Part shown: positions 7,576 through 35,450 of the stretch, one piece after another | How the letters are laid out: each line of letters opens with the position of its first letter | How positions within the stretch are numbered: the stretch's first letter is position 1 | Made by a program: the position numbers and the translations under genes | The notes under the pieces: generated by a model | Told to the model about the DNA's origin: nothing | The model's input: only the letters and a program-made list of their open reading frames with translations | Database searches by the model: none | IMG/VR virus record: IMGVR_UViG_3300006919_000132 | Location: 1-40,402 of that record | DNA length: 40,402 nt | Origin: a virus | Direction: 5' to 3' (one strand)

Positions 7576-8847
7576 TTATGATATATCTATTACGTGATAA
7601 GTTAAGTATATTGTTATTGAATTCATACTGTTGGAAGTTAGAGCTGAATCTACAGAAACTTCTACACCTTTGTTTACAAGATCTGTAAGATTTTGTGATA
7701 TTTCAATACCAGTTATTTCACCTAAAGAATAAACTATATCTGTTGTATTTCCAAACATAAACCTTCTCACATGGCATAATGATGTTTGTCCAAAAATGCC
7801 AGGCTCTTTACCTGCGTAGTGAAAATTTAAATCAGCTGCTGAATTATTTTGAGCTGAATTTCTGTCTACCATTAGTATTCCACTACCAGGAACTATAATA
7901 GTGTTAGCCCCTTGTGCAGGTATCAACTCTATTGGTATAGCATGTAGACTATTACAATTAGCTTGTGATAAAGTAACTTTAACTTGTTTAGAAATAAAAG
8001 AACCAGTAGATACAGTTTCATCTGAAACATCACTAGTTAAAGCTACAGTTCCATCAGCGTCAGGAAACAATATTGTTCTATTAGTAGAAGTAGTTGAAGA
8101 TTTAACTCTTGTAGTGTGACTATTGTCAATATCAGAAAAAATTAAATATTGATCGCCAAGCATTGCTGCTCCAGTAGTAGCACTTATCAAGCCAGCTACT
8201 GTAGCGCCACCAGTAATATCAACATCTCCATCACTATCTATTGTAAACTTAACAGCTGAAGTATTATATGAACTACCACTACTACCAGCAGTTGCACTCC
8301 AAAATCTAAGTGATCCACCAGCTCCAGTACCAGTTCCTCTACCAGCTATAAGTTCTAAATTACCACCAGCTTTATTAGTGCCAACACCACCACCAGCTTT
8401 TACACCTAATGGAGCTCCAGTGTGAGAGCCTACAGATAGATCTTGTTGTTCTATCAAGCCTCCAGCACCCGTGCCAAAAAGACCTACACTTTCAAATGTA
8501 ATTTGTCCATAAGGAGAAGTTAGTACATCCGGGTTGTATCCAAACGGTGCGTTTCCAGCTCCAATTTTAACATCACCAGTAGTATCGTTTACTCTTAAAA
8601 AAGTAGTAAATTGAAGTCCAGATTCCGCATTTAAACCTGTACCACCTGTTGATGTTACAACCAAATTGTCAGTGGCATTTGTTATACTTAGTTCACCAGC
8701 ATTAGTATCTGCTTTTACTATTTTATTGTTTGCATCTAAACCTAAGTTACCTCCACTGGCTATTGTGCCAGTAGAGATATCTTCTAAGTATACGTCATTA
8801 CGAAACCTAGCTATAAAGTCTTGTATAAACTGACCTATAAATTTCAT
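7576..8847 (-). CDS. Tail-fibre-like protein (receptor-binding candidate)
   Basis: 423 residues, Gly/Ser/Thr-rich. The N-terminus MKFIGQFIQDFIARFRNDVY may anchor the fibre. The middle (about 120-200) is Gly-rich with AGGNLELIAGRGTGTGAGGS, as in extended fibre shafts. Residues near 255-280 (NRTILFPDADGTVALTSDV) match a short repeat often seen in phage tail fibres and structural proteins ('TFPDADGTVAL'). The C-terminal ~130 residues have no glycine shaft and could be the receptor-binding head. It overlaps the 59-residue Cys-rich gene by one base and opens the tail-fibre/lysis block. No chaperone or endosialidase domain is visible. Confidence 0.78.
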   Translation of the reverse strand: MKFIGQFIQDFIARFRNDVYLEDISTGTIASGGNLGLDANNKIVKADTNAGELSITNATDNLVVTSTGGTGLNAESGLQFTTFLRVNDTTGDVKIGAGNAPFGYNPDVLTSPYGQITFESVGLFGTGAGGLIEQQDLSVGSHTGAPLGVKAGGGVGTNKAGGNLELIAGRGTGTGAGGSLRFWSATAGSSGSSYNTSAVKFTIDSDGDVDITGGATVAGLISATTGAAMLGDQYLIFSDIDNSHTTRVKSSTTSTNRTILFPDADGTVALTSDVSDETVSTGSFISKQVKVTLSQANCNSLHAIPIELIPAQGANTIIVPGSGILMVDRNSAQNNSAADLNFHYAGKEPGIFGQTSLCHVRRFMFGNTTDIVYSLGEITGIEISQNLTDLVNKGVEVSVDSALTSNSMNSITIYLTYHVIDIS

Positions 8848-9026
8848 TATATTTCAAAGCCAAAGTTTAAAATCATAAATCTAAACCTAGCACACTTGTT
8901 TTTATTATTACAAACTACGCAAGGGCAAAACATTAATTCAAATATTGTCCACGTGCCCAATCTAAGTGTTAATTCATATCTTTCTTTCTTATTACCTGCT
9001 TTCCAGGAATTAATCCAATTAATCAT
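8847..9026 (-). CDS. 59-residue Cys-rich mini-protein (CPCxxC)
   Basis: A complete frame encodes 59 residues beginning MINWINSWKAGNKKERYELT, with a cluster FCPCVVCNNKNKC (33-45) and an aromatic tail RFRFMILNFGFEI. Four cysteines at 34, 36, 39 and 45 could bind one zinc ion. The stop overlaps the tail-fibre start by one base (TAATG), as at other junctions in this operon. It is the first gene after a promoter-like element, so it may be the leader of the tail-fibre/lysis transcript. A similar Cys-Pro-Cys cluster occurs in the 23-residue frame at the operon's end. Function unknown. Confidence 0.7.
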   Translation of the reverse strand: MINWINSWKAGNKKERYELTLRLGTWTIFELMFCPCVVCNNKNKCARFRFMILNFGFEI

Positions 9027-9041
9027 AATTTACTTGTTTTT

Positions 9042-9064
9042 GTTATACTATAGTATTATTACAC
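9042..9064 (-). promoter_or_regulatory. Promoter-like element, copy 3 (before tail-fibre/lysis block)
   Basis: In the 49-base spacer after the 3364-residue gene, the - strand carries GTGTAATAATACTATAGT followed by ATAAC. It matches the element at 31688-31710 at 17 of 23 bases, with flanking A-rich sequence also similar. It includes a 12-bp perfect palindrome ATACTATAGTAT at 9045-9056. It lies 15 bases upstream of the ATG at 9026. A phage late promoter is the simplest reading; a regulator site is an alternative. Confidence 0.55.
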
Positions 9065-9075
9065 GTTTATTTATA

Positions 9076-12000
9076 TTATTGATTTCTATGGTGAAAACAT
9101 TTCCATCTTTTAACATCTGTAACAGCCGTTAAACCACACCTATTTCCTTGTGAATTTATACCGTGACATCTAACTTCTTTTTGCCCAGACTCTTTTTGCT
9201 TTTTATCTTTATTTATTTTTTTGTCTCTAGCTCTTTGTTTTTTAGCATCTTCTTTTGCTTGCTCAAGTTCTTCGTCTTTAATACCTAAACTCCATTTATC
9301 CCAACCAGCAACTAAAGCAGCTCGCTTCCAAGGTTCGTGACTACCTGTTATAGCTTCTTCTAAATTGTTAGCCTTGTTTAACAATCTTGCCGCCGGTATA
9401 TTAGTTAAAGCTTCAGTTAAACTAGCAGCCATAGCAAAATTAGGATTTTCTAATCTCCAACCTAATTGCTCTGGCACGCCTTTATTATAAGCATCAGAAT
9501 AATATGCTTGCATTATTTTTCTAACTTTACTACCAGCAGGTGGAGATAAGTTTACTACTGCCTGCATTATCTTTTCTGGTCTTTCTTTACCAAAGCCAGC
9601 ACTTTTTTGTTTCTGCCACTCTATAGCTGTATTTTTAAGAGTCGACGCTAAAGCTCCATGTATACCCATACCACGTAAAAAACTATCAAGAGCACTATTA
9701 AAAGCTCTACTTGCTTTGTCATCTATTAACTCTTCGTCGTCACTTCCAAATAATAAGAACGATAAACCGTTTTGTAGAGCTGCAAACACAACGTTCTGTA
9801 CAAACCCATAATATATTATTTTTGATATATTAGTTTTAGTATCGCCTCTACGATTAACTAAATCAGATAAAGCTTTCTTTGTTAGTCTACCATACTGCAT
9901 TGTTACGTTTTGAAACGCTAACACTAATCTACCTAATACACTAGCCTGCTGCATTGATATTAAATCTTCTCTTGAAGACTGCTGGGTTTCTTCTGCTATT
10001 TCTTGAAAGTCTAACATAGCTTTATTCTTAGCTTCAGTATCTGATAAACCTCTTTTTTTATACGTGTTTATTCTATTTCTTACAAAACTAGCGCCACCAA
10101 AAGCTATAGCAAAACTATCAGCTATTTGTGTAGGTTTAAAACCTAATTGTAACAAATAACTTATAACAGTCGTTGGCGAGTAACCGTTTTCTGCAAAGCT
10201 TTTTGCTAGCTCTGAAGCGTTCATATCCATTTGCAAACCAGCTCTTCGCTGTCTTAACATGTCAGAGTTAAATAGCATCGTAAAGTCTTTCCAAAACTGT
10301 GGTTGATTAGCAAATGCAGCTGAAGCTTTGAATATATTGTTGTCACTCCAGTTTACAAAGTTAATAGTAGAAAGTGTTTGTAGTATAGCTGATCTCATGT
10401 TAAAGAACATAATAGCACCAACAGAACCATTTATCCAATCATTAAAATCATTAACAACTCTATTGCTACCTTGCTTTCTATTACCACCATTTTCCATACG
10501 GTATAATATATCATCTAAAGCTTCTCTAAATCTAGTGCCGTATACAGCTTCTATTTTATTTAAGTTTTCCGGAGAAAATATTAAGTTTTTATTTTCTATC
10601 CAGTTTTCTAAAAACTCTTTTCTACCAACTTTATTAACGGTAGTTCTCAAGTCAGTACCAATAGAGCCTATAGACCAGTTTTCGGTTGGCTCTATGTAAC
10701 CTTCTGTTCTTTTTGTTATTTTAGATAAGCTGTCAGCAAAAGATTTTAAATCAGTATTATTATTAACGTTATCAATTAACATTTGCTTTTCAGAATTAGA
10801 TATACCAGGTATATCAAACCCAGCTTTGTCCCATAAATAAACTCTTACAGATGTGTCATTAGTGTATACAGAGTTAGGTATTTTTTTATTTAGCTTTAAT
10901 TTAGGAAATTGTTTTTTAAGATTTTTATAATCATTAACCATGTTCTGCTTATATGTATTCCAAGCCCTTATACCTTTAGCAAAAGGCCTTAACAAGTTGT
11001 CTTCAAAAAACTTCATGTCTTTATTACCTTGTTCGCCTCTACCCATAAAATAATATAATAAACCTTTAAAGTCTTCGGCTGATGGTGGTATGTATATTCT
11101 AAACCTACCTATACCCTTACCTCTTTTTTTAGCTTCTGCTTCAGAAAATATTTTAAAAGCGTCAACGCCTTTTTTACGTTCAATCATATTGTTAAGTTCT
11201 GAGCTAGCAGATCTACTAAATTTAGCCTTAGCTTGAACAACTTCAGATTTAATATCTAGTTGATCTAGTACTTTTCTAACAGCTTCAACGTTTTGAAAAG
11301 CGTCATCAACAAAATACATATCATTGTAACCCTCTGCGAACTTGCCTAACATCCACTCAGCTTTTGCTTCACCCGTACTGTTAGCTAAACCAGTTATATT
11401 TTCTATTGGTATATCTAAACCTTGTGATTTTAAAAATTGCTGTATAGCTAAAGCAGAAGCAGCAGGCCTAGCTGTTAATACAAACATGTTATCAGTTCCA
11501 AACTTTTCAGCTCTTTGTTTTGCTTTGTTAAGCAGTGGGCCAGGTGTTCCATCAACAACCTCGTTAAACTCAGAAAAGTCAAAGCTTCCACCTTGTTTTA
11601 ATATATCATCACCTTGACTGGCAAACTCTTCAGCATCTAGTCTAAGCTTTTCGTAACTAGAAACAAAGTCATCCATTTGCTGAACTATGTCAACAGGCAT
11701 AGGATCTTCTTGTTTTAAGTTATCAGTATTAACTTCCATAAACCTATCACCAAACATTTCTTTAAATGCAGGTTTATTATTTTGTACAGCCTCGTGATTA
11801 CGTTTTACTATAGTATCTAACAGTGAACGTTCTTGTCTAGCTCTATTACGTGCTAAGGCGACATCTAATGAGGTTTCTACAAAAACCATGCTAACATCAT
11901 ATCCTTTAGATTTAAACTCATCTACGAGCTTCTGCATTGATTTTACGCTACCACCAGTACCGTCAACAACAACTCCATTAGCGTTACCTTGATACTTCAT

Positions 12001-15000
12001 CATTTTGTTTCTAGCTATTTGTCTAGCTTGATGACCTAGCTTACCTAAAGTACTTCTTTGCTCTGGTGTTAGATCTCTCATGTCAGCTGGTAATCCCGAG
12101 TTTTTCTTTAGCCACTCTAATGATATATCTGAGTTTACTATTTTAAAACCCATGCCAGATAAACCTAACTTACTAACAACGTTACCTTTGCCGCTACCAG
12201 CACCGCCAGCTAAAAATATAACTTTACGATTTGGTTTTGGTAGTCCGTCCATATTGGGCAGTGTTGCTCTAACCCCTGACTTTGTTTTAGCTAATGTGTC
12301 ATCAAAATCAAATGTTGACATACCTCTTGTTTCTCCTGATCTACTAAACTTACCTGAGTTACTAAATGATTTTTGTATGTTTTGATTAACTTGTGTAGTA
12401 TAAGTAGGTTTAAATAGTTTAATAGAGCCACTAGCGTTAATGTTATATTTAACATCAAATGTTACTCCATCAAGATCTTCTAACGTAGAAGGGTCTATAC
12501 CTCCGTTGTTAGCTGCTACTAAATCATTAAAATATCTTTGCCAAAAATAACCATCAATTACGCTCCAGTCGTCTGGCATTACCTTCTGTAAGCTTTTCTT
12601 TGTTCTAAGTGTTTTAGCAGATGTAAGCTTATGGTCCATAGCTTTATCTAGTATTATTAACTTATAATTTTTTATTATACTATTATAAGCTTCATTAAAG
12701 TTTATATCAACACCCTCGCCTTCTTTTTTAGGTAAACCTAAAGCAGAGTGTAGCAAATATAAATAAGCTTGAGTAGCTGGCATAGCGTGTTCAAGTTCTA
12801 CTTTAGTTTCCATTTTACCTTTATGTAAAAATGGCTGCAGCTTTGTAGAATAACCTGCCACTTGCGCACCTAGTTTGTGCCAGTGGTTTCTATCATTTCC
12901 AACAAGAGATAAGTAAGTACCTATAGCTCTAGCATTAGACTTATTATCTTTTATCATTTCTGCAAATCTTTCCCACATTTGCCTGTGTATTTTACCAACT
13001 TGATCGTTAAACTTTAATACTTCTTTTTTATTTGCTCTAGCTTTTTTAAGATCAAAGTTTTCACCAGTAAAGAAAAGAGAGTTGTATTTGTTTCTAAGGG
13101 CATACATTTCTTTCATGTTAACGCCTTTAAAATCTTTACCCCAAAAGCTAGCATCATCTTTGTGCTCGTTGTAAAGTTCTTGCATTTGTATTTGTACCTC
13201 TGCCCAAGCTGGATCTTTACTAGTTTTAAATCCAAAAAGCTTGTGACCACCTGTAAATATAGAAGCATTAGTCTCAGCACCTTGACCAGTTTCTTTTAAG
13301 GTCTTTTTGTAGTATGCATGTCTAGAATTTTTTCCAGATTTTCTTTGAAAGAAAAAATCTAAAGGTAAAGATTTAAAAAATCCAGAAGCAATTAAATTAT
13401 CTATAAAGGGCTTTACATCTTCTTTAGTTTTTATTCTGTATATACCTCCTTTCACTTCTTTTCCATGCACATTTGTTAGAAGATAATCTATCTTGACTAA
13501 ACCTTGATCAAACTGATCTAGCACAGTTGCTACACCGTCGACCTGTTGTGTTGCTAGTGAATTTATTAAATCACCTTTTTTAAGATTACTATTAATTGCA
13601 GGTTGGCTAAACATAACGCTAGGCTTTGGATCACCTATAGACTGTAGCTCAGGATTAGTAACTCTTATTTCTTGATTAGCTCCTAATGCCGCCATGTTAG
13701 TAACAAACTCTCTTATAGCGCCATCATACTTTTCTTGTTTAATTTTTTTATCAAGTATATTTCCTTTTTCGTCAATACCAAAAAGCTCTAGCACTTGTTT
13801 GTTGGTTACATTTTCAGGTTTTATTTGCTCAGTTAAGCCTTGGGTACTACCAGTGGTCGCAGATTTAACACGAGCGCCTTCTTTATATAAACTACCAAGC
13901 TTAGTGTTAGCTATACCAGTCGCTTTACCAGAAGCGTCTGTACCGTCTGGTAAAAAAGTTTCCATTAAATTATTATTCTCAGCTAATTTAACTATTAAAT
14001 CTCTAGCCGCTTTTCTTTGTTTAGCATCTAAGTTTGAAGCTGTTGATATTTTTTTTGCAGGCACACCAAAAGCATCTGCAAATAATTTTAACACAGATTT
14101 AAGTGAGCCGGTTTTAACTTCTTGTTTTACTTGTTTATAGCTAGGTTTTTTTATTATTTTAGATAAATCAGATTTACTAACTATATCTTGTATGTTGTTT
14201 CTGTCTATGCCTAAAAAGTCTGCTACAAATAAACTACCAACTTTACTTATGTTAGTAGAGCTAGAAGTTGAAGTCACGTCGCTAAATGTGTCAAAGCCAT
14301 TTTCTCTCATTTCATCTAGTGAAACAGTGTTTCCAGCTTGTTTAGCAGCGGCTCTAACAACTTGACCTTTCTTTATTGGTAAGCCTAAAGGCATTTGAAC
14401 ATAAGCACCAAAAGCATCGTTTTTACTTGGATCCCATCTATTAGTTAACAACACTAGCTCAGCAAGCATTTCTTGTTGTACGTCTGCTAATGGTGGCGCA
14501 AGGAAGTTTGTATTAGCTAATTTATTTTTTATAAAATTATGAGCTTCTTTAGCATTTTTTAATGCAGCTTTATGATTGTAAACTACCAACTCTTGTTTTA
14601 ATCTTTGAGTTCTCCTATCATCTCTGTCTAACACCTCTTTCATAGTAATATTTTCTTTATTAGCTATGTCTTTTATCTTGTTATATATCTCAGCATTTTT
14701 TTGTACGATTTGTTCAGAAGTAACGTTAGGAAATACAGAAAATATTGGGTCATCTTCAGGCATAGAGAATTTAGCTCCTTTTTCTTTTTGCAAAACGCTA
14801 AGCAACAACTGTTTAAACTTATCTTGTTGTACAGCTTGTTTCATTTCAGAGCTTTCAGCTAGTTCTTTAACAGCACCACCTACTTTTATTTTCTTTTTAA
14901 AAGCTTCTTTAAATGATTTTGAAAAATCACCACGTTGTATTGTAGAGTTAAAGTCTTTTATAAAATTATAAACGTCTTGACCAGAGTTAAGTTCTATTTG

Positions 15001-18000
15001 AAGACCAAGGTTATGGCCTATGTTTCTAAATATAGCGCTTATACCAGCCATCATACCGTCATTGTAGTTCATACTACCCGTGGCTAAGCCATCTAAAAAC
15101 AAAGCCATACCTTCTTCGGTTTTAGTTTCTAAATCAGCGTTTAAATAATTATTTAGTCTTTTTCTGTACTCACCATCTCTAACCATCCTAGGGTCTATAC
15201 TTCTTAAATGAGCTTCAAACGCTGCACCTAAAGCTATTTTAAGCTCAGGGCTTTTGTTTAATGTTTCCTGTAAAAAGAAATGAAAAAACTCGTGTGACGC
15301 TACATTAGTTCCATTTGTCTCAACAGATAGTTGTTGATTAAAAACAATGAAACTAGGTTGTCCTTCTGGTAACATTTCGTTTGTTAAAAAATAACCATGC
15401 GCAGTTTTTGCTTCGTTTAAAAAGCTTTCTATGTTTATTTTCTTTTTAGTTTCTTTGTTTTCAAGTTCAGTTATTACCTTGCCAGTACTTATGTCTACTA
15501 TTTTTTTATCAGAGTTTCTTTTTAATCCTAACTTAGCTAAAACTTTAGCTTCTGCTTCTGCATTTGTTTTGCCTTCAACGACGTCAATTAAACCTTTTTC
15601 TTTTAGTTTTTGTTTTTCAATTATAGCTCTTACCTTTTTTACAGTTTGCTTATACTGTTCTGTGTTTTTTCTTTTTATTATAACATCTTTTACAGGTGCT
15701 ATAATTTCATTTTTTTCTTTTGTTAAATCACTTATTTCTTTTTGAGACTTAGAACTCTTAGGACCAAGCTTTAGCTGTGATATTCTTTCATTTATCTCAG
15801 ATAATCTAACAGATTTTTTAGGGTCTGTTTTATTTATTTCAGCTTGTATTTCTGTTTCGGTTGCTGTGTTATTAAGTTTTGTTTCAGGAGAGTTTGTTTT
15901 TACTTGGTCTGCAGATAATTTATTTTTTTCTAAATAACTCATAGCGTCATCAAGCGTAACATAGTCGTTGTATACTTTTATTTGTAAATCTTTATTTAGT
16001 TTACCATTTCTTTTGGCTTTTCTAAGCGCCGCCATAAACTCAGACTGACTGTCATACATAATACCGTCAACCTCTCTATACGCAGGCTTATAACCCATAG
16101 CTTTACCATAAGCTATACCGCCACCACCAAAAGAAGCAGATACTAAAGCTACTGTACTAGCAAGTTCTCGCATACCTCTCCAATCAAAACCTAAATCATT
16201 ACCAAATTCGTCGTATTTTCTTATACCTTCAAGAGCTTTGCCTCTACCATCAGCTAAATTAGACAATGGCATGTTAACTAATTCTTCAATAAATTCAGCG
16301 GTAAACCCATTATAACCAGCGTTTTTAGCTGACCAATTTAAAAAATCAGCAGGAGTAGCCATGCCATTTTTTCTCATAAACTGACCTATAGCTATTTTTT
16401 TCCAATTTTTAGATTCAGTAAAAGATTTTAACGGTGTCTTTTTTAAAACTTTCATACCGCCTTTAAAAACAGAAGGTATATAATAACCTATTCTTTCAGT
16501 AAAAGTTTCAGAAGCATTTTTTAAAAAACTTCTTTTTAATGCCTCGCCTCTACTGTAACCTTCTTTTAATTCAAGATCTTTACCTTTAGGTCCACTAGCA
16601 GTATGTATATCTATCTGCGCCATTTCGTCATCAGTAAAACTAAATGCCATCATATGCTCATCTGTCATCAAGTCCATTTGTGTAGCTGCTATACGAAAAG
16701 GGTTAGCAGCTGTTTGAGATGACACACCCATTAAACCCGCAATAAAATCTGTACCTAATTGTCTAACTTTATTTCCTTTTACAAACAACAACCTGCTACC
16801 ATCTTTAGAAACTCTAGCTTTACCAAGACTAGGAATTATTTTTTTAGTGTACTTGCTAGCTATAGCCATGTTTACGCCAGCTTTAGCTGTACTAAAAGCA
16901 GTTCTAAAAGCAGGACCAGTAGCAATAAACTCAGCTATAAAAGGTGCTGTTTCTCCAAGTCCTTTACCTATTCTATAACCATTAGATATTTGACTTTTAG
17001 CATGCTCTGAATTAGATTTAATTTCAGACATAGCTAGTAACAACTTATCTTCAGGAGTTAATTTATCATCTGGTTTATTAGCAGCATCTCTAACTCTTTT
17101 GTCATTTTTAAAATCTATAAGAGCTCCAACAAAAGGAAGTTTTTCTCTTTCAAACAGCTCACTAAAACCTAATAACAAACCGCTATTAAGTGGAGCGTCA
17201 CGCATACTTTCAGGATCGTCTAAAACTTTATCTGCCCAGTAATTTATTTGATCTAGCGTAGCTTCCACGTCTGCGTAATACCTTCTAGCTACTTCCTGAT
17301 CTATATCATTGCCTTTAAAACCATCTTCAATAACTTCTTTTTTAATTTCTTCTAGCTTAGGATTGTAAGAATTAATTTTATATTGTGGAACTCTGTAATA
17401 ACCTCCACTTTTATACTCTAATAAACCTTTTTTTATTTTATCTTCATAATCTAAAGCGTTGTACATTTCTGTAAACTGAGGTGTATCTTTAATAATAGAT
17501 ATATCACCTCTCATTTTATCTACTTCTTTTTTTAATAAACTAGCAAAATCTTTATTATAAAAATGACTTAAAATTCTTTCGCCATTTTCTTCTTTTTGTT
17601 GGTATTTTAATTTAGGATAAAAATAATTATAGTATTCTGTTATATAAGCCTGTCTATCTTCAACACTGTCTATAAGCTCTTGCTCTTCGTATATTTGTAA
17701 ATACTTTTTAAGAGTTTCATCTAGCATTTGTTTTTTATCTTCGTAGTGAACCTCATTATTTATTAAACCTTGTTGTAATAAATCTTCACTTATCTCTTCT
17801 AATGCACCTATATCCCACTTTTTATAAACATCAAAGTTACCATTCATAAAGTCTTTTAAATCTTTATCGTAACTCTGCTTATATTCATTACTATATTTCT
17901 CGTCTATAGCCTGTATTTCAGGTTGAAACTTAGAAACTATTTCATACCTTTTGTTATAAGCATCTAGCATTGGTTTAAATGCTTCTTCAGCTAGCAGATT

Positions 18001-19170
18001 AGCCTCTTTGTCTAAATCATCTTCTAGTTTTTTTAAAGCTTGCTGTTTTTCAGCGCTGCTCATATTTTTATATTCTTCTGTTTTAGAAAACTCGCTCCAC
18101 TTATTTCTATAATCATCAAATAACTTCTTGCCTTCACCATATAGAAAAAAGTTTTTTTGACCGCTTTCAACTTGTCTTAATATATCTTTAAGCTGAGGGT
18201 CTGATTTTATTCTTGCGTTTATTTCAGGATTATTTAACAGTTCTGTGTATTCGTTTTGAATTTTTGTTGTTAGCTCTTCAAGCTTAGTTTCTTGAGATTT
18301 TTTAAATATTGGTAAAGTTTTATTAAAGCTTGTTTCAAGTTGCTTGTAGTTGTAGTCAAGCTCATTAATAGTTTCAAATTCTGAAGGCTTTTCATCTTCG
18401 GTATAATAGCTAGCGGGTCTGTTTTTATTTTCATCAAACTTTCTATTAATTTGAGATGTTGTTAAACCTTTATATACATCACTAAAACCACTTTCTAAAA
18501 CATTTTTAGATTTATCTATTTGATCTTGTAAATTTTTTATTTCATTAAATCTTTCTTTAGTTGTAGGATCGGTATCGCTAACATTGAAAGTGTTTCCATT
18601 GCTATCAGTTCCATAATAAAAAGTTGAAACTGATGGTCGTAAGTTTTTGCCAATAGGCGGATTAACAACCGTGTATTTATTTATTTTATTTTTATCAAAA
18701 TTTTGTATAGCTTTGTTAGCTTCTTCTATACTAGAAAAAGTATTTTTATCATCAGAAAATATATCGTAATCTGTTTTGTTAGATTTTTTATACTTATTTA
18801 CAGTATTGTTATATTGTAAATCTTCTTCGTTATCTTTTTTTTGTTTAAGACCAAAATCAATGTTTACTCTATTATTAGTTGCAACAGATAGATTGTCAGT
18901 TCTAACAAATCTATCATCAAATTGTTTTTGATTTTTAAATTTTAATACATTGTTAAGAACTTCTGGACTCAATGTGAAGTCCAAAGAAATATCTTCCGAT
19001 GGTGATTCCGTATTTTGTTGATTGTTTCGGGGCTGACTCGCCCCTGTCGACTTTCCCAACTCATCGTCTTGTAATATTGGGTTTTTATCTTTAAAGTCTT
19101 CTAAGAATTGTTGTTCTTTTGATGGCCCCACTTCATATGGCTTGCCATCAACTAAATAAATTTTGTTCAT
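9076..19170 (-). CDS. 3364-residue polyvalent virion/ejection protein
   Basis: The largest gene here. Order: conserved-looking N-terminus (1-60) and long charged coiled-coil region (60-720); hydrophobic segments near 735-775 and 1000-1030; a zincin-like site H1293-E-F-F-H1297 with E1352/E1353 downstream; a WDPSKNDAFGAY patch near 1579 recalling sigma-70 region 2; a HAD phosphatase (D2288-F-D-D-T2292, T2566, K2603, D2622-D2623) split by a P-loop kinase with Walker A GGAGSGKG (2322-2329), zeta-toxin/polynucleotide-kinase-like; hydrophobic segments near 2930 and 3130; and a C-terminal Cys/His motif (C3335, C3345, C3358, H3361). KFSRS-like linkers at 1467, 2274 and 2650 mark module borders. Position after two smaller ejection-type genes suggests a T7 gp16-like role, injected with DNA, but no transglycosylase motif is seen. 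Multi-effector 'polyvalent protein' is the best label. Confidence 0.85.
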   Translation of the reverse strand: MNKIYLVDGKPYEVGPSKEQQFLEDFKDKNPILQDDELGKSTGASQPRNNQQNTESPSEDISLDFTLSPEVLNNVLKFKNQKQFDDRFVRTDNLSVATNNRVNIDFGLKQKKDNEEDLQYNNTVNKYKKSNKTDYDIFSDDKNTFSSIEEANKAIQNFDKNKINKYTVVNPPIGKNLRPSVSTFYYGTDSNGNTFNVSDTDPTTKERFNEIKNLQDQIDKSKNVLESGFSDVYKGLTTSQINRKFDENKNRPASYYTEDEKPSEFETINELDYNYKQLETSFNKTLPIFKKSQETKLEELTTKIQNEYTELLNNPEINARIKSDPQLKDILRQVESGQKNFFLYGEGKKLFDDYRNKWSEFSKTEEYKNMSSAEKQQALKKLEDDLDKEANLLAEEAFKPMLDAYNKRYEIVSKFQPEIQAIDEKYSNEYKQSYDKDLKDFMNGNFDVYKKWDIGALEEISEDLLQQGLINNEVHYEDKKQMLDETLKKYLQIYEEQELIDSVEDRQAYITEYYNYFYPKLKYQQKEENGERILSHFYNKDFASLLKKEVDKMRGDISIIKDTPQFTEMYNALDYEDKIKKGLLEYKSGGYYRVPQYKINSYNPKLEEIKKEVIEDGFKGNDIDQEVARRYYADVEATLDQINYWADKVLDDPESMRDAPLNSGLLLGFSELFEREKLPFVGALIDFKNDKRVRDAANKPDDKLTPEDKLLLAMSEIKSNSEHAKSQISNGYRIGKGLGETAPFIAEFIATGPAFRTAFSTAKAGVNMAIASKYTKKIIPSLGKARVSKDGSRLLFVKGNKVRQLGTDFIAGLMGVSSQTAANPFRIAATQMDLMTDEHMMAFSFTDDEMAQIDIHTASGPKGKDLELKEGYSRGEALKRSFLKNASETFTERIGYYIPSVFKGGMKVLKKTPLKSFTESKNWKKIAIGQFMRKNGMATPADFLNWSAKNAGYNGFTAEFIEELVNMPLSNLADGRGKALEGIRKYDEFGNDLGFDWRGMRELASTVALVSASFGGGGIAYGKAMGYKPAYREVDGIMYDSQSEFMAALRKAKRNGKLNKDLQIKVYNDYVTLDDAMSYLEKNKLSADQVKTNSPETKLNNTATETEIQAEINKTDPKKSVRLSEINERISQLKLGPKSSKSQKEISDLTKEKNEIIAPVKDVIIKRKNTEQYKQTVKKVRAIIEKQKLKEKGLIDVVEGKTNAEAEAKVLAKLGLKRNSDKKIVDISTGKVITELENKETKKKINIESFLNEAKTAHGYFLTNEMLPEGQPSFIVFNQQLSVETNGTNVASHEFFHFFLQETLNKSPELKIALGAAFEAHLRSIDPRMVRDGEYRKRLNNYLNADLETKTEEGMALFLDGLATGSMNYNDGMMAGISAIFRNIGHNLGLQIELNSGQDVYNFIKDFNSTIQRGDFSKSFKEAFKKKIKVGGAVKELAESSEMKQAVQQDKFKQLLLSVLQKEKGAKFSMPEDDPIFSVFPNVTSEQIVQKNAEIYNKIKDIANKENITMKEVLDRDDRRTQRLKQELVVYNHKAALKNAKEAHNFIKNKLANTNFLAPPLADVQQEMLAELVLLTNRWDPSKNDAFGAYVQMPLGLPIKKGQVVRAAAKQAGNTVSLDEMRENGFDTFSDVTSTSSSTNISKVGSLFVADFLGIDRNNIQDIVSKSDLSKIIKKPSYKQVKQEVKTGSLKSVLKLFADAFGVPAKKISTASNLDAKQRKAARDLIVKLAENNNLMETFLPDGTDASGKATGIANTKLGSLYKEGARVKSATTGSTQGLTEQIKPENVTNKQVLELFGIDEKGNILDKKIKQEKYDGAIREFVTNMAALGANQEIRVTNPELQSIGDPKPSVMFSQPAINSNLKKGDLINSLATQQVDGVATVLDQFDQGLVKIDYLLTNVHGKEVKGGIYRIKTKEDVKPFIDNLIASGFFKSLPLDFFFQRKSGKNSRHAYYKKTLKETGQGAETNASIFTGGHKLFGFKTSKDPAWAEVQIQMQELYNEHKDDASFWGKDFKGVNMKEMYALRNKYNSLFFTGENFDLKKARANKKEVLKFNDQVGKIHRQMWERFAEMIKDNKSNARAIGTYLSLVGNDRNHWHKLGAQVAGYSTKLQPFLHKGKMETKVELEHAMPATQAYLYLLHSALGLPKKEGEGVDINFNEAYNSIIKNYKLIILDKAMDHKLTSAKTLRTKKSLQKVMPDDWSVIDGYFWQRYFNDLVAANNGGIDPSTLEDLDGVTFDVKYNINASGSIKLFKPTYTTQVNQNIQKSFSNSGKFSRSGETRGMSTFDFDDTLAKTKSGVRATLPNMDGLPKPNRKVIFLAGGAGSGKGNVVSKLGLSGMGFKIVNSDISLEWLKKNSGLPADMRDLTPEQRSTLGKLGHQARQIARNKMMKYQGNANGVVVDGTGGSVKSMQKLVDEFKSKGYDVSMVFVETSLDVALARNRARQERSLLDTIVKRNHEAVQNNKPAFKEMFGDRFMEVNTDNLKQEDPMPVDIVQQMDDFVSSYEKLRLDAEEFASQGDDILKQGGSFDFSEFNEVVDGTPGPLLNKAKQRAEKFGTDNMFVLTARPAASALAIQQFLKSQGLDIPIENITGLANSTGEAKAEWMLGKFAEGYNDMYFVDDAFQNVEAVRKVLDQLDIKSEVVQAKAKFSRSASSELNNMIERKKGVDAFKIFSEAEAKKRGKGIGRFRIYIPPSAEDFKGLLYYFMGRGEQGNKDMKFFEDNLLRPFAKGIRAWNTYKQNMVNDYKNLKKQFPKLKLNKKIPNSVYTNDTSVRVYLWDKAGFDIPGISNSEKQMLIDNVNNNTDLKSFADSLSKITKRTEGYIEPTENWSIGSIGTDLRTTVNKVGRKEFLENWIENKNLIFSPENLNKIEAVYGTRFREALDDILYRMENGGNRKQGSNRVVNDFNDWINGSVGAIMFFNMRSAILQTLSTINFVNWSDNNIFKASAAFANQPQFWKDFTMLFNSDMLRQRRAGLQMDMNASELAKSFAENGYSPTTVISYLLQLGFKPTQIADSFAIAFGGASFVRNRINTYKKRGLSDTEAKNKAMLDFQEIAEETQQSSREDLISMQQASVLGRLVLAFQNVTMQYGRLTKKALSDLVNRRGDTKTNISKIIYYGFVQNVVFAALQNGLSFLLFGSDDEELIDDKASRAFNSALDSFLRGMGIHGALASTLKNTAIEWQKQKSAGFGKERPEKIMQAVVNLSPPAGSKVRKIMQAYYSDAYNKGVPEQLGWRLENPNFAMAASLTEALTNIPAARLLNKANNLEEAITGSHEPWKRAALVAGWDKWSLGIKDEELEQAKEDAKKQRARDKKINKDKKQKESGQKEVRCHGINSQGNRCGLTAVTDVKRWKCFHHRNQ
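9088..9168 (-). other. C-terminal zinc-finger-like motif of the 3364-residue protein
   Basis: The last 31 residues contain C3335-x9-C3345-x12-C3358-x2-H3361 in the context RCHGINSQGNRCGLT and KCFHH. This resembles small treble-clef motifs of the 'C.G.T..G.RC......C..H' type found at the ends of phage and mobile-element proteins. Four ligands suffice for one zinc ion. A basic linker of Lys/Arg precedes it, which suggests nucleic-acid contact. Confidence 0.6.
11221..12351 (-). other. HAD phosphatase with inserted P-loop kinase, between two KFSRS linkers
   Basis: Residues 2274-2650 of the 3364-residue protein. HAD motif I (FDFDDTL, D2288/D2290) is followed by a complete kinase-like domain: Walker A with K2328, VNSDIS, VVVDGTGG and an Arg-rich lid (ALARNRARQERS). 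HAD motifs II (FVLTARP, T2566), III (K2603) and IV (YFVDDAFQN, D2622/D2623) come after it. The combination recalls polynucleotide kinase-phosphatases, but here the kinase sits inside the HAD fold rather than beside it. Both boundaries carry the sequence KFSRS. Confidence 0.75.
15061..15408 (-). other. Zincin-like metalloprotease region of the 3364-residue protein
   Basis: Residues about 1255-1370. ASHEFFHFFLQETL provides HExxH (H1293, E1294, H1297), and KTEEGMALFLDG 55 residues later offers E1352 or E1353 as third zinc ligand, the gluzincin-type layout. The preceding strand (SFIVFNQQLSVETNG) fits the edge strand of such proteases. Substrates could be host proteins or the protein itself. Confidence 0.65.
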
Positions 19171-19202
19171 ACTGTTTCGTTAGTTACCCGTTAATAATAA
19201 TT

Positions 19203-20383: not shown

Positions 20384-21052
20384 TTAATTTTGACCAGATT
20401 TTTGACCAGAATAAGCTATTCCTAAGTCTACTAAATTACCTACAGTTCCTGTTATTGCGTCAAATTTTTGTTGATCAGCCTGCTGAGCTTGCTGCATGTA
20501 AGCCGCAACTCTACTTTGTTCCATACCTAATAGCGTACCTTGTTTAGCCATTTCTTTATCTTGCTGTATTTGTACGCCTTTAGCTTCTAGCTCTTGATTT
20601 CTAGCAGCTTGTTGAGCAGCTAATCTTTGGTTCATAGCTTCTTGTTGGCCTATAGTAGCAGAAGCTCTTTGAGTAGCTATTTGACCTTGCTGCGCTAGTG
20701 TTTGAGCTAAAGCAGCTATACCACTACCACCAGCAGCCCCAGCTAAATTAGACATTATATTAGCTTGTTGTTGTTGATTTTGTTGCGCTTGAAATTGAGC
20801 TTGTTGTTGATTAACTGTTAAGTCTTCAAATTTGTTTTCTAGATTTTCAAATGGATTACTAGTGTCAAGATTAGCATATATATTTTCTAATCTTTTCATT
20901 CTTTCTCTAGCTTTTCTTTCTCGCCTTTCTGCCGCACGTTTTTGTTTACCAGCTGAAATAGCTCCAAAAACACCAGTAATTGCTGATACAGCAGCAGCGC
21001 CAGCTAATACTGCAGGAGCAAATTTATTTGGACTTTCTTTCTCGTTTCTCAT
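20384..21052 (-). CDS. Ala/Gln-rich ejection protein candidate (T7 gp14-like in position)
   Basis: 222 residues. A hydrophobic Ala/Gly-rich helix (12-34, APAVLAGAAAVSAITGVFGA) is followed by a strongly basic stretch (36-55, KQKRAAERRERKARERMKRL) and a long Gln/Ala-rich helical part with NQQQAQFQAQQNQQQQANI. Small, Ala/Gln-rich proteins with one membrane-active helix are typical of the first ejected protein of podoviruses, which seats in the outer membrane. It is the first gene downstream of a promoter-like element and begins the ejection block. No database match was made; the role is inferred from composition and order. Confidence 0.65.
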   Translation of the reverse strand: MRNEKESPNKFAPAVLAGAAAVSAITGVFGAISAGKQKRAAERRERKARERMKRLENIYANLDTSNPFENLENKFEDLTVNQQQAQFQAQQNQQQQANIMSNLAGAAGGSGIAALAQTLAQQGQIATQRASATIGQQEAMNQRLAAQQAARNQELEAKGVQIQQDKEMAKQGTLLGMEQSRVAAYMQQAQQADQQKFDAITGTVGNLVDLGIAYSGQKSGQN

Positions 21053-21059
21053 ATTCTTT

Positions 21060-21082
21060 ATTTTACTAATATATAGTTACAT
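21060..21082 (-). promoter_or_regulatory. Promoter-like element, copy 2 (before ejection block)
   Basis: On the - strand this reads ATGTAACTATATATTAGT then AAAAT. It matches the copy at 31688-31710 at 21 of 23 bases, while the surrounding spacer does not match, so it is a conserved signal. It lies only 7 bases upstream of the ATG at 21052. If the TATA-like centre is a -10 region, the transcript would have almost no leader. No hairpin precedes it. Confidence 0.65.
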
Positions 21083-21092
21083 TTTTTACTTA

Positions 21093-21500
21093 TTATTTAC
21101 TAGAAGGTACTATTTCACATGATAAAGCAAACATCTCTGCTTTTTCTGTAGAGTTATTTACCATTGTTGCTTCACTAAAATAACCAACTAAAGAAGACAG
21201 GTTTACAGTATTGTCTTTAGAAAATAATAAATAACTTCCTGCGGCGGGATTAATAAAATCGCTAGGAATATCGTTTATTATTACTGTGGTAGTAGTAACA
21301 GAGCCACTAGTACCTGTAGATATTCCACTTACTTTACCAATAGTTACTAAATTAGACTCAGTGTTTTGATCGCCACTACTACTTCCAAATATATTAAACC
21401 CACCAACGGTATTTAAACTATCAGCTGGAACATAATAAGCTGTATCACCAACCTGTAATGAAGGATAATCTTGTTTGTTTATATGAAAAGTTACTGCCAT
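21093..21500 (-). CDS. Small beta-rich virion protein
   Basis: 135 residues, rich in Thr, Ser, Val and Gly with alternating strands (VTIGKVSGISTGTSGSVTTT). The last part (AEMFALSCEIVPSSK) has the only cysteine. I do not recognise a family. Similar short beta proteins next to the tail stabilisation gene are common in marine phages and are usually virion components. It ends just before a promoter-like element, so it is the last gene of the transcription unit that starts near 31679, unless read-through occurs. The gene starts one base after the upstream stop. Confidence 0.62.
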   Translation of the reverse strand: MAVTFHINKQDYPSLQVGDTAYYVPADSLNTVGGFNIFGSSSGDQNTESNLVTIGKVSGISTGTSGSVTTTTVIINDIPSDFINPAAGSYLLFSKDNTVNLSSLVGYFSEATMVNNSTEKAEMFALSCEIVPSSK

Positions 21501-30983: not shown

Positions 30984-31679
30984 TTAACTATTTTGTTGTT
31001 GCTTTGTTAATTGAGTATCGGCTGTAGCAGCTTGATAAACATCAGGTTGTTTTATTATTACTCCAGCTAACATTAATATTCTTGAAACTAAATTCTCTTC
31101 TTCACTTGCATGTAGCTCAAAGTTTTGTGCATCGCTTGCTCCAGAGTTATATAAAGCTTTACCATTAACTACAACGTATGTCCAATTAGGCGCTACAGGT
31201 CTTTTATAATAACTAACTTCAAAAGTGGTTGATTCTGTAGGAGCTGGATGTATAGTAACAACACCGCTGTCTTCTCTTACGAACGTAGATCTAGTAATTG
31301 TAGCTTTTGTTAAAGGATTATTTTCAGTGTATGATATTTCACTTTTGTTTAATTGAGTTACTTTGTTTCCACCTCTAGTAATACCTATTATTTTAAAAGT
31401 ATTTGCTGGCAAATTAAGTGAAGCTGTAGACGTCGTAGCATCTTCATCAACATGGAAAGGGTGTAATTTTTCTTCAGTCATTTCTACTTCATCAGCGTAA
31501 GAAGCTTGACTATTGGGTTTTCTTTGAGCCATTTTAATTGTATGAAAATAATTATTATATATTTCCATCTGTGCTTTATCTGCTAATAAATTAAACTCCT
31601 GAGGCGTTATATAGCCTCTCTGTTCTTTATTAGCTATAGCTAAAACCTTTTGATATACTCTGTTTATTTCTACTGCCAT
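30984..31679 (-). CDS. Connector/ring protein candidate with KEQRGYITPQEFN motif
   Basis: 231 residues. The N-terminus MAVEINRVYQKVLAIANKEQ is followed by RGYITPQEFNLLADKAQMEI, which recalls a structural protein common in Bacteroidetes and crAss-like podoviruses. A beta-rich core with VVTIHPAPTESTTFEVSYYK follows, and a polar tail ends TKQQQNS. It is the first gene after the promoter-like element at 31688-31710 and is packed with the connector candidate (two bases apart), so both likely form rings below the portal. The start is fixed by the element lying 8 bases upstream. The name is inferred. Confidence 0.62.
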   Translation of the reverse strand: MAVEINRVYQKVLAIANKEQRGYITPQEFNLLADKAQMEIYNNYFHTIKMAQRKPNSQASYADEVEMTEEKLHPFHVDEDATTSTASLNLPANTFKIIGITRGGNKVTQLNKSEISYTENNPLTKATITRSTFVREDSGVVTIHPAPTESTTFEVSYYKRPVAPNWTYVVVNGKALYNSGASDAQNFELHASEEENLVSRILMLAGVIIKQPDVYQAATADTQLTKQQQNS

Positions 31680-31687
31680 TTGTTTCT

Positions 31688-31710
31688 ATTTTACTATAAT
31701 ATAGTTACAT
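31688..31710 (-). promoter_or_regulatory. Promoter-like element, copy 1 (before connector/tail block)
   Basis: On the - strand this reads ATGTAACTATATTATAGT then AAAAT, 8 bases upstream of the ATG at 31679 and downstream of a terminator hairpin (31741-31764). Terminator followed by the element and then a new gene block is the layout expected of a promoter. Near-identical copies occur at 21060-21082 and, more diverged, at 9042-9064. It lacks the TTTG/TAnnTTTG pattern of the main Bacteroidetes sigma factor, so a phage-specific polymerase or factor may read it. Confidence 0.68.
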
Positions 31711-31731
31711 AATAAAGTGAAAGGTTAGCCC

Positions 31732-31764
31732 TAAATAAAAATAGCCACCCGTTAAGGTGGCTAT
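31732..31764 (-). terminator. Intrinsic terminator after the 283-residue gene
   Basis: A perfect 9-bp stem (ATAGCCACC / GGTGGCTAT, 31741-31749 and 31756-31764) with a six-base loop is followed on the - strand by TTTTATTTA. It lies 20 bases past the stop of the 283-residue gene and just ahead of the promoter-like element, so it separates two transcription units. Confidence 0.88.
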
Positions 31765-32656: not shown

Positions 32657-32691
32657 AAAAAAATATAAGGGCGATACTAGACCGCCCTTAT
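32657..32691 (-). terminator. Intrinsic terminator after the major capsid gene
   Basis: A perfect 9-bp stem (ATAAGGGCG / CGCCCTTAT, 32665-32673 and 32683-32691) with a nine-base loop is followed on the - strand by A then seven T and a further AATTTT tract. It lies 12 bases after the capsid stop codon. Such a site may stabilise capsid mRNA and reduce expression of the genes beyond. Confidence 0.9.
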
Positions 32692-32703
32692 AAATAAATA
32701 GTC

Positions 32704-35424: not shown

Positions 35425-35450
35425 AATAAAATTTTATAAAATATTAAATA

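Follow-up and report, generated by a model that had tools for sequence, protein, structure and literature searches.

T4 gp55 and SPO1 gp28 and gp33/34 are phage-encoded sigma factors for middle or late genes, and the late promoters of T4 consist of a -10-type box only, TATAAATA. The locus that we describe here probably resembles these systems, in that a phage protein of the sigma-70 family would re-aim the host RNA polymerase at middle and late units, through promoters that the host's own sigma factor leaves unused. It differs from the late promoters of T4, with their single -10-type box, in that the predicted promoters of this crAss-like clade have a -35 as well as a -10 element and the sigma factor has regions 2 and 4, and no sequence tie between it and the T4 or SPO1 phages was found. 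Among the Crassvirales themselves, the programme of phi14:2 and crAss001 runs through early, middle and late stages, with a virion polymerase for the early genes and the host RNA polymerase for the late ones, and these accounts mention no sigma factor (PMC10136315), whereas the clade studied here has both a sigma factor and matching putative promoters; a search of the open-licence literature turned up no publication about crAss-like phage sigma factors. The promoters of P23-45 are comparable as a conserved, AT-rich and phage-only motif that occurs only in phages with the matching factor, the proposed reader there being a phage polymerase (PMC10770324), while our candidate reader is a sigma factor.

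The window that we analysed is the whole of the 40,402-base virus record IMGVR_UViG_3300006919_000132, whose minus-strand genes match the crAss-like structural block, with the Crassvirales gene order (TerL, portal, major capsid, ring and muzzle proteins) kept. It is the same structural block as in phi14:2 and crAss001, and the window phage is a marine crAss-like phage. The original prediction, made from the letters alone, had pointed to three related promoter-like sites, and all three were relocated on the minus strand with the identities it gave: site A at 31688-31710 (ATGTAACTATATTATAGTAAAAT), site B at 21060-21082 (ATGTAACTATATATTAGTAAAAT) and site C at 9042-9064 (GTGTAATAATACTATAGTATAAC), with A and B agreeing at 21/23 bases, A and C at 17/23 and, in addition, B and C at 15/23. 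Likewise, the distances to the start codons, claimed to be 7-15 bases, measure 8, 7 and 15 for A, B and C (ATG at 31679, 21052 and 9026). Site A precedes a ring/connector protein gene (30984..31679, minus strand; phrog_14543, 2.5e-39), the first gene of its putative unit. Site B heads a 222-aa gene (20384..21052, minus strand) that has orthologues in most relatives and lies upstream of the gene for a 3364-aa giant protein; its product has a weak winged-helix match (HTH_39, below the cut-off), and the label of an ejection block is plausible for it. The tail-fibre label did not hold, since what site C precedes is a 59-aa ORF (8847..9026, minus strand; 49-81% identity to the relatives' copies) and no recognised tail-fibre gene.

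Besides B, nothing in the 40-kb window matches site A at more than 17/23, except for A's own reverse strand, which matches it at 18/23 because A is partly palindromic. The A/B identity lies modestly above all 60 Markov shuffles of the window spacers (best 23-mer: mean 17.2, maximum 20); the A/C identity taken alone has no significance against the same 60 shuffles, and the question was therefore settled by comparison with relatives. Directly upstream of A there is an intrinsic terminator (31741..31764, minus strand; a 10-pair stem and then TTTTATTT, z -3.4), which is conserved together with A in the relatives. A second intrinsic terminator (32664..32692, minus strand; z -4.1) lies between the major capsid gene and a 283-aa gene, and no promoter of the TGTAAYTATA class follows it. 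The RNA fold of site A itself is ordinary, an Rfam search gave no matches, and a scan with the E. coli sigma-70 consensus returned an uninformative 68 sites against 53 expected.

Some other features of the window deserve a mention in their own right. The spacer at 19171-19202 before the 3364-aa giant gene (9076-19170), which reads AACGGGTAACTAACGAAACAGT-ATG, contains decamers found in 11/11 clade genomes; it is not a TGTAAYTATA promoter, and is possibly a conserved leader or some other signal. The spacer at 35425-35450 before a 397-aa gene (TTAATATTTTATAAAATTTTATT-ATG) is self-complementary and kept in most clade genomes, and in the giant protein a Zeta-toxin/AAA kinase-like domain was found near residues 2314-2465.

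IMG/VR yielded 80 loci that encode a relative of the ring protein, and we examined 79 of these for TGTAAYTATA, with no more than one mismatch, in the 330 bases upstream. The element stands ahead of the orthologous ring gene, in the direction of transcription, in 57/79 loci, 49 of which have exactly TGTAACTATA, and it stays on the same strand and close to a start codon even in loci with a small gene inserted in front of the ring gene; none of the 79 ring loci has TAnnTTTG within 80 bases of the ring-gene start. Many relatives also have copies of their own in the B and C spacers, and the variant at site C recurs before the orthologue of the 59-aa ORF in five of them (G005, G006, G007, G010 and G011). 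We counted 24 copies of TGTAAYTATA lying in a spacer 8-70 nt before a gene on the same strand in 11 clade genomes (602 kb, 5% non-coding), while 200 permuted decamers give a mean of 0.17 and a maximum of 4, the highest being near-copies of TGTAAYTATA itself. Far from being scattered randomly in coding sequence, which had been named as grounds for abandoning the idea, the motif is concentrated before genes. A 24-base matrix built from the relatives scores A at 36.8 and B at 31.9, against a maximum of 13.9 in shuffled 40-kb sequence; the matrix was trained on orthologues of A and B, and the scores therefore speak for specificity of position, not for independence. In the remaining 22/79 ring loci, a more distant group, the element is absent and the loci inspected have a hairpin in the spacer. 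A G+C-rich hairpin just before the ring-gene ATG was seen in seven loci of this group (L053, L057, L061, L066, L074, L078 and L081). Taken as a whole, the element is conserved and is, in all likelihood, a start signal for late genes.

The original prediction had also suggested a phage-specific transcription apparatus, to be sought outside the window, and a good candidate for it is encoded in six large relatives (G001, G002, G003, G005, G008 and G009; TerL 75-90% identical), in the form of a ~251-aa sigma factor assigned by Sigma70_r2 and r4 (regions 2 and 4) and by phrog_351. Seven relatives were first examined and these six were positive; the remaining one, G006, is represented by a contig of 53 kb that ends at the first late gene and has no sigma gene, and the gene is also absent from the shorter clade fragments and from the window fragment. 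The window is a 40-kb fragment that lacks the early arm, and we therefore infer from its relatives that the window phage would itself carry a sigma gene. By sequence, the relatives' protein can be aligned to sigma-A chains, and its AlphaFold model (mean pLDDT 78) is matched by Foldseek to sigma-A/sigma-70 chains over ~240-300 columns with probability 1.00 and TM-scores of ~0.3, values so low that the fold match speaks for the domains as such and not for a single rigid shape of the whole protein. Its nearest phage matches, in a Microcystis phage and a cyanophage, are weak. The gene directly after that of the sigma factor carries a predicted promoter of the same kind, TGTAATTATA, at a level of at least 9/10 in 54/69 loci (shuffled controls, 3/69; random windows, 0/240), which is kept across sigma proteins that are ~54-100% identical. 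As an aside, one contig of 129,537 bases, IMGVR_UViG_3300047157_000162 (L161, L185), has two different copies of the sigma gene, and perhaps represents two joined genomes.

When the three classes of site (ring, B and post-sigma) are aligned without gaps on their TG, they reveal a common layout in otherwise unrelated surroundings: a TAA, then TGTAAYTATA 18 bases on, then ATA and usually a purine. The TAA is found at -18 to -16 from the TG in 49/49 ring loci with exact TGTAACTATA, at the -18 offset (inside GTAAAT) in the B class, and at -18 in 37/43 non-redundant post-sigma sites, where no other offset within 30 bases exceeds 9. Since conservation in the ring and B spacers extends more widely, the strongest class of the three is the post-sigma one. 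Placing the TG at -15/-14 puts the TAA at -33 to -31 and the conserved ATA immediately ahead of the start, and this geometry is that of a sigma-70-type promoter that has both a -35 box and an extended -10 element. In the window, the extended -10 element of site A (TGTAACTATA, 31700..31709, minus strand) lies before the ring-protein gene with a predicted +1 near 31694, and its -35 TAA (31725..31727, minus strand, in GCTAACC) begins 18 bases upstream of the T of the TG. At site B the same TGTAACTATA (21072..21081, minus strand) precedes the 222-aa gene, with a predicted +1 near 21066 and a TAA (21097..21099, minus strand, in GTAAAT) that overlaps the end of a 135-aa gene. Site C has a variant -10 element (TGTAATAATA, 9054..9063, minus strand) before the 59-aa ORF, with a predicted +1 near 9048. 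A -10 element before transcription units, on the coding strand, is present, and a -35 at a fixed distance is present in A, B and the post-sigma class; site C reads CAA, which is non-consensus, at the -35 position. The leaders predicted from this placement of the TG are ~15 (A), ~14 (B) and ~22 nt (C), within the ordinary range of flavobacteria, where the median leader is 24 (PMC9723704); to call the mRNAs of the window 'nearly leaderless' was therefore an overstatement, and the description is a better fit for some post-sigma sites and for an early class of the relatives that we come to below.

Among all window positions, a matrix trained only on the post-sigma sites of other contigs ranks B (16.0) first and C (8.0) second, with A under the listing threshold; the shuffled 40-kb maxima have a mean of 9.9 and reach 19.6, which makes the scores of B and C modest, and it is therefore their rank and position that carry the argument. 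The same matrix also picks out a putative promoter of the first late gene in the relatives, AGTAAAT...TGTRATTATC, and in MW202828, a complete crAss-like genome (TerL 63% identical), it gives no site associated with the start of a gene. In G001 this first late-arm site lies at ~6930-6997 of L084, with equivalents in G002-G007 and G011 that have TGTRATTATC and the TAA at -18; it sits ~55-70 bases upstream of the gene, and in several genomes the leader holds a small hairpin such as CGACAAGTAGTCG. A strict 16-base pattern run over the whole of 33 sigma-bearing contigs left many without a match and sometimes matched its reversed control, and since it was too blunt, the position-anchored comparison was used instead. 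The expectation that the motif would precede only late genes fits the window, where it heads late blocks; in the relatives the same class is also found at the head of those early/replication-arm genes that follow the sigma gene, and before the gene that opens the late arm, and it is therefore better described as middle plus late.

What happens in crAss-like phages that have no such sigma family? Six were available (MW202828, elemoF, phi19:3, phi38:1, Panino and Gundel_1), two of them with only sub-threshold region-4 matches, and all six lack the element at the ring gene and have TAnnTTTG 23-39 nt before the ring-gene start instead, in several cases (for example, MW202828 and elemoF) following a terminator. 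TAnnTTTG is the primary promoter of flavobacteria (PMC9723704), and its box here takes the same place, after the terminator and before the ring gene, as our element, from which it differs in sequence and in the spacing of its boxes. Before genes it occurs 16 times in MW202828 against 4.1 expected, and 0-3 times, at or below expectation, in the genomes of the window clade, where it is lacking in the early arm too; this Bacteroidota sigma-A -7 box was not found at the clade's sites, which supports the claim that the element departs from the host consensus. By comparison, in all six sigma carriers the element occurs after the sigma gene and at the ring site, the B site or both, and so element and sigma factor go together. 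Their co-occurrence, 6/6 against 0/6 and uncorrected for relatedness, may represent one evolutionary event. The position of the putative promoter is kept and its sequence differs between the branches, and it appears that the marine branch has a sigma factor of its own with matching promoters where its relatives keep a terminator and a host-type promoter.

The early arm of the relatives has a second promoter-like class, TTTACAAAnTAAATACGA-N10-11-GATAATA, with 7-23 matches per near-complete genome (counting some that fall in duplicated ends of contigs). Almost all of them are on the early strand, and the motif often stops 0-5 bases short of an ATG. Examples are found in G001 (L084; 2617, 3395, 5015 and 6380, minus strand), there are many copies in G009 (L118, L121), and the class, which differs from the host TAnnTTTG, is absent from the window and from MW202828. 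We can entertain, rather tentatively and with more doubt than conviction, the idea that the whole infection might run on promoters that the host normally leaves unused, with some unrecognised polymerase, injected or divergent, serving the early class and the phage sigma factor coming into play thereafter to turn the host polymerase to the middle and late genes. If true, this would be a two-step takeover, and we found none described for crAss-like phages.

Could the host be reading these sites by itself? The host RNA polymerase might do so with an alternative host sigma factor, or with a primary one whose consensus differs in this lineage, leaving the phage sigma factor to serve some other purpose. 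Our search for a host gave only two co-binned MAG contigs (Crocinitomicaceae and Maricaulis), and the lack of TAnnTTTG in the clade, which extends to its early arm, might point to an unusual host. We nonetheless regard this as unlikely, given that the same bipartite promoter stands directly after the sigma gene across such divergent sigma proteins and is missing at the ring gene of relatives without one; the early genes, moreover, have a different motif, and so the element is not simply a general host consensus. Still less likely, in our opinion, is a promoter for a phage RNA polymerase, be it T7-like or the crAss-type virion enzyme. The element does contain TATAG, and so do T7-type promoters. 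The virion polymerases of Crassvirales transcribe the early genes (PMC10136315), and the strongly conserved AT-rich motifs of P23-45 are proposed to be virion-polymerase promoters (PMC10770324). Against this, a separate -35 box at a fixed distance is a sigma-type feature, and late transcription in crAss-like phages is attributed to the host polymerase (PMC10136315). The DxDxD of the Crassvirales virion polymerase is absent from the 3364-aa protein and is not consistently placed in the homologous giants of the clade, and a 2369-aa muzzle protein has two DxDxD strings that are not conserved across its homologues. No T7-type polymerase was found either, whether by PF00940 in 7 genomes, a search whose positive control was equally silent, or among the matches listed (the best 25 Pfam/PHROGs families) for the non-late proteins of G001.

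The dyad in site A (ACTATAtTATAGT), seen also in the 18/23 self-match of its reverse strand, raises the thought that the element is not a promoter core and might instead serve some phage activator or repressor as a palindromic operator. This we dropped as scarcely credible: the dyad does not survive intact in site B and the post-sigma class lacks it, what is kept is a directional TGTAAYTATA with its upstream TAA, and the gene-linked matches run in the direction of transcription. Finally, there is chance acting on an AT-rich composition, for which one might cite the non-significance of A/C within the window and the fact that A/B tops the 60 shuffles by a single base; conservation at orthologous positions and the spacer enrichment of 24 against 0.17 make it, in our estimate, close to negligible.

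We therefore return to late promoters for a host RNA polymerase that carries a phage-encoded sigma-70-family factor, which we believe is very probably the correct explanation. The sites A, B and C would be the promoters of separate late transcription units, with a consensus of [CG]TAA[AC] at about -34 to -30, ~14 bases, TGTRAYTATA at -15 to -6, 2-3 bases, ATA and, as a rule, a purine near +1. Since the relatives encode the sigma factor in their early arm, it would switch transcription to the replication genes behind it and also to the late arm, namely the first late gene, the ring block, the block of the 222-aa gene and the block at site C. At the ring gene, the terminator at 31741-31764 would end the transcript of the head genes and promoter A would restart transcription for the ring/connector block, and with the terminator just upstream of it, A could set the level of this block alone; B and C would head the later blocks. 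Binding by the sigma factor, the start sites, the timing and the use of the host core polymerase are what we infer from these sequences.

The evidence supports a system that would work like a phage-encoded sigma-factor regulon, the sequence-level features of which are found here, and this would be new in crAss-like phages. The predicted regulon is open to direct test, and the sigma factor and its promoters are a candidate orthogonal pair for Bacteroidota genetics. For the crAss-like phages themselves, a marine branch that seems to have its own sigma factor and matching promoters, alongside relatives with host-type ones, would offer a natural case for comparison in studying how promoter networks are swapped.
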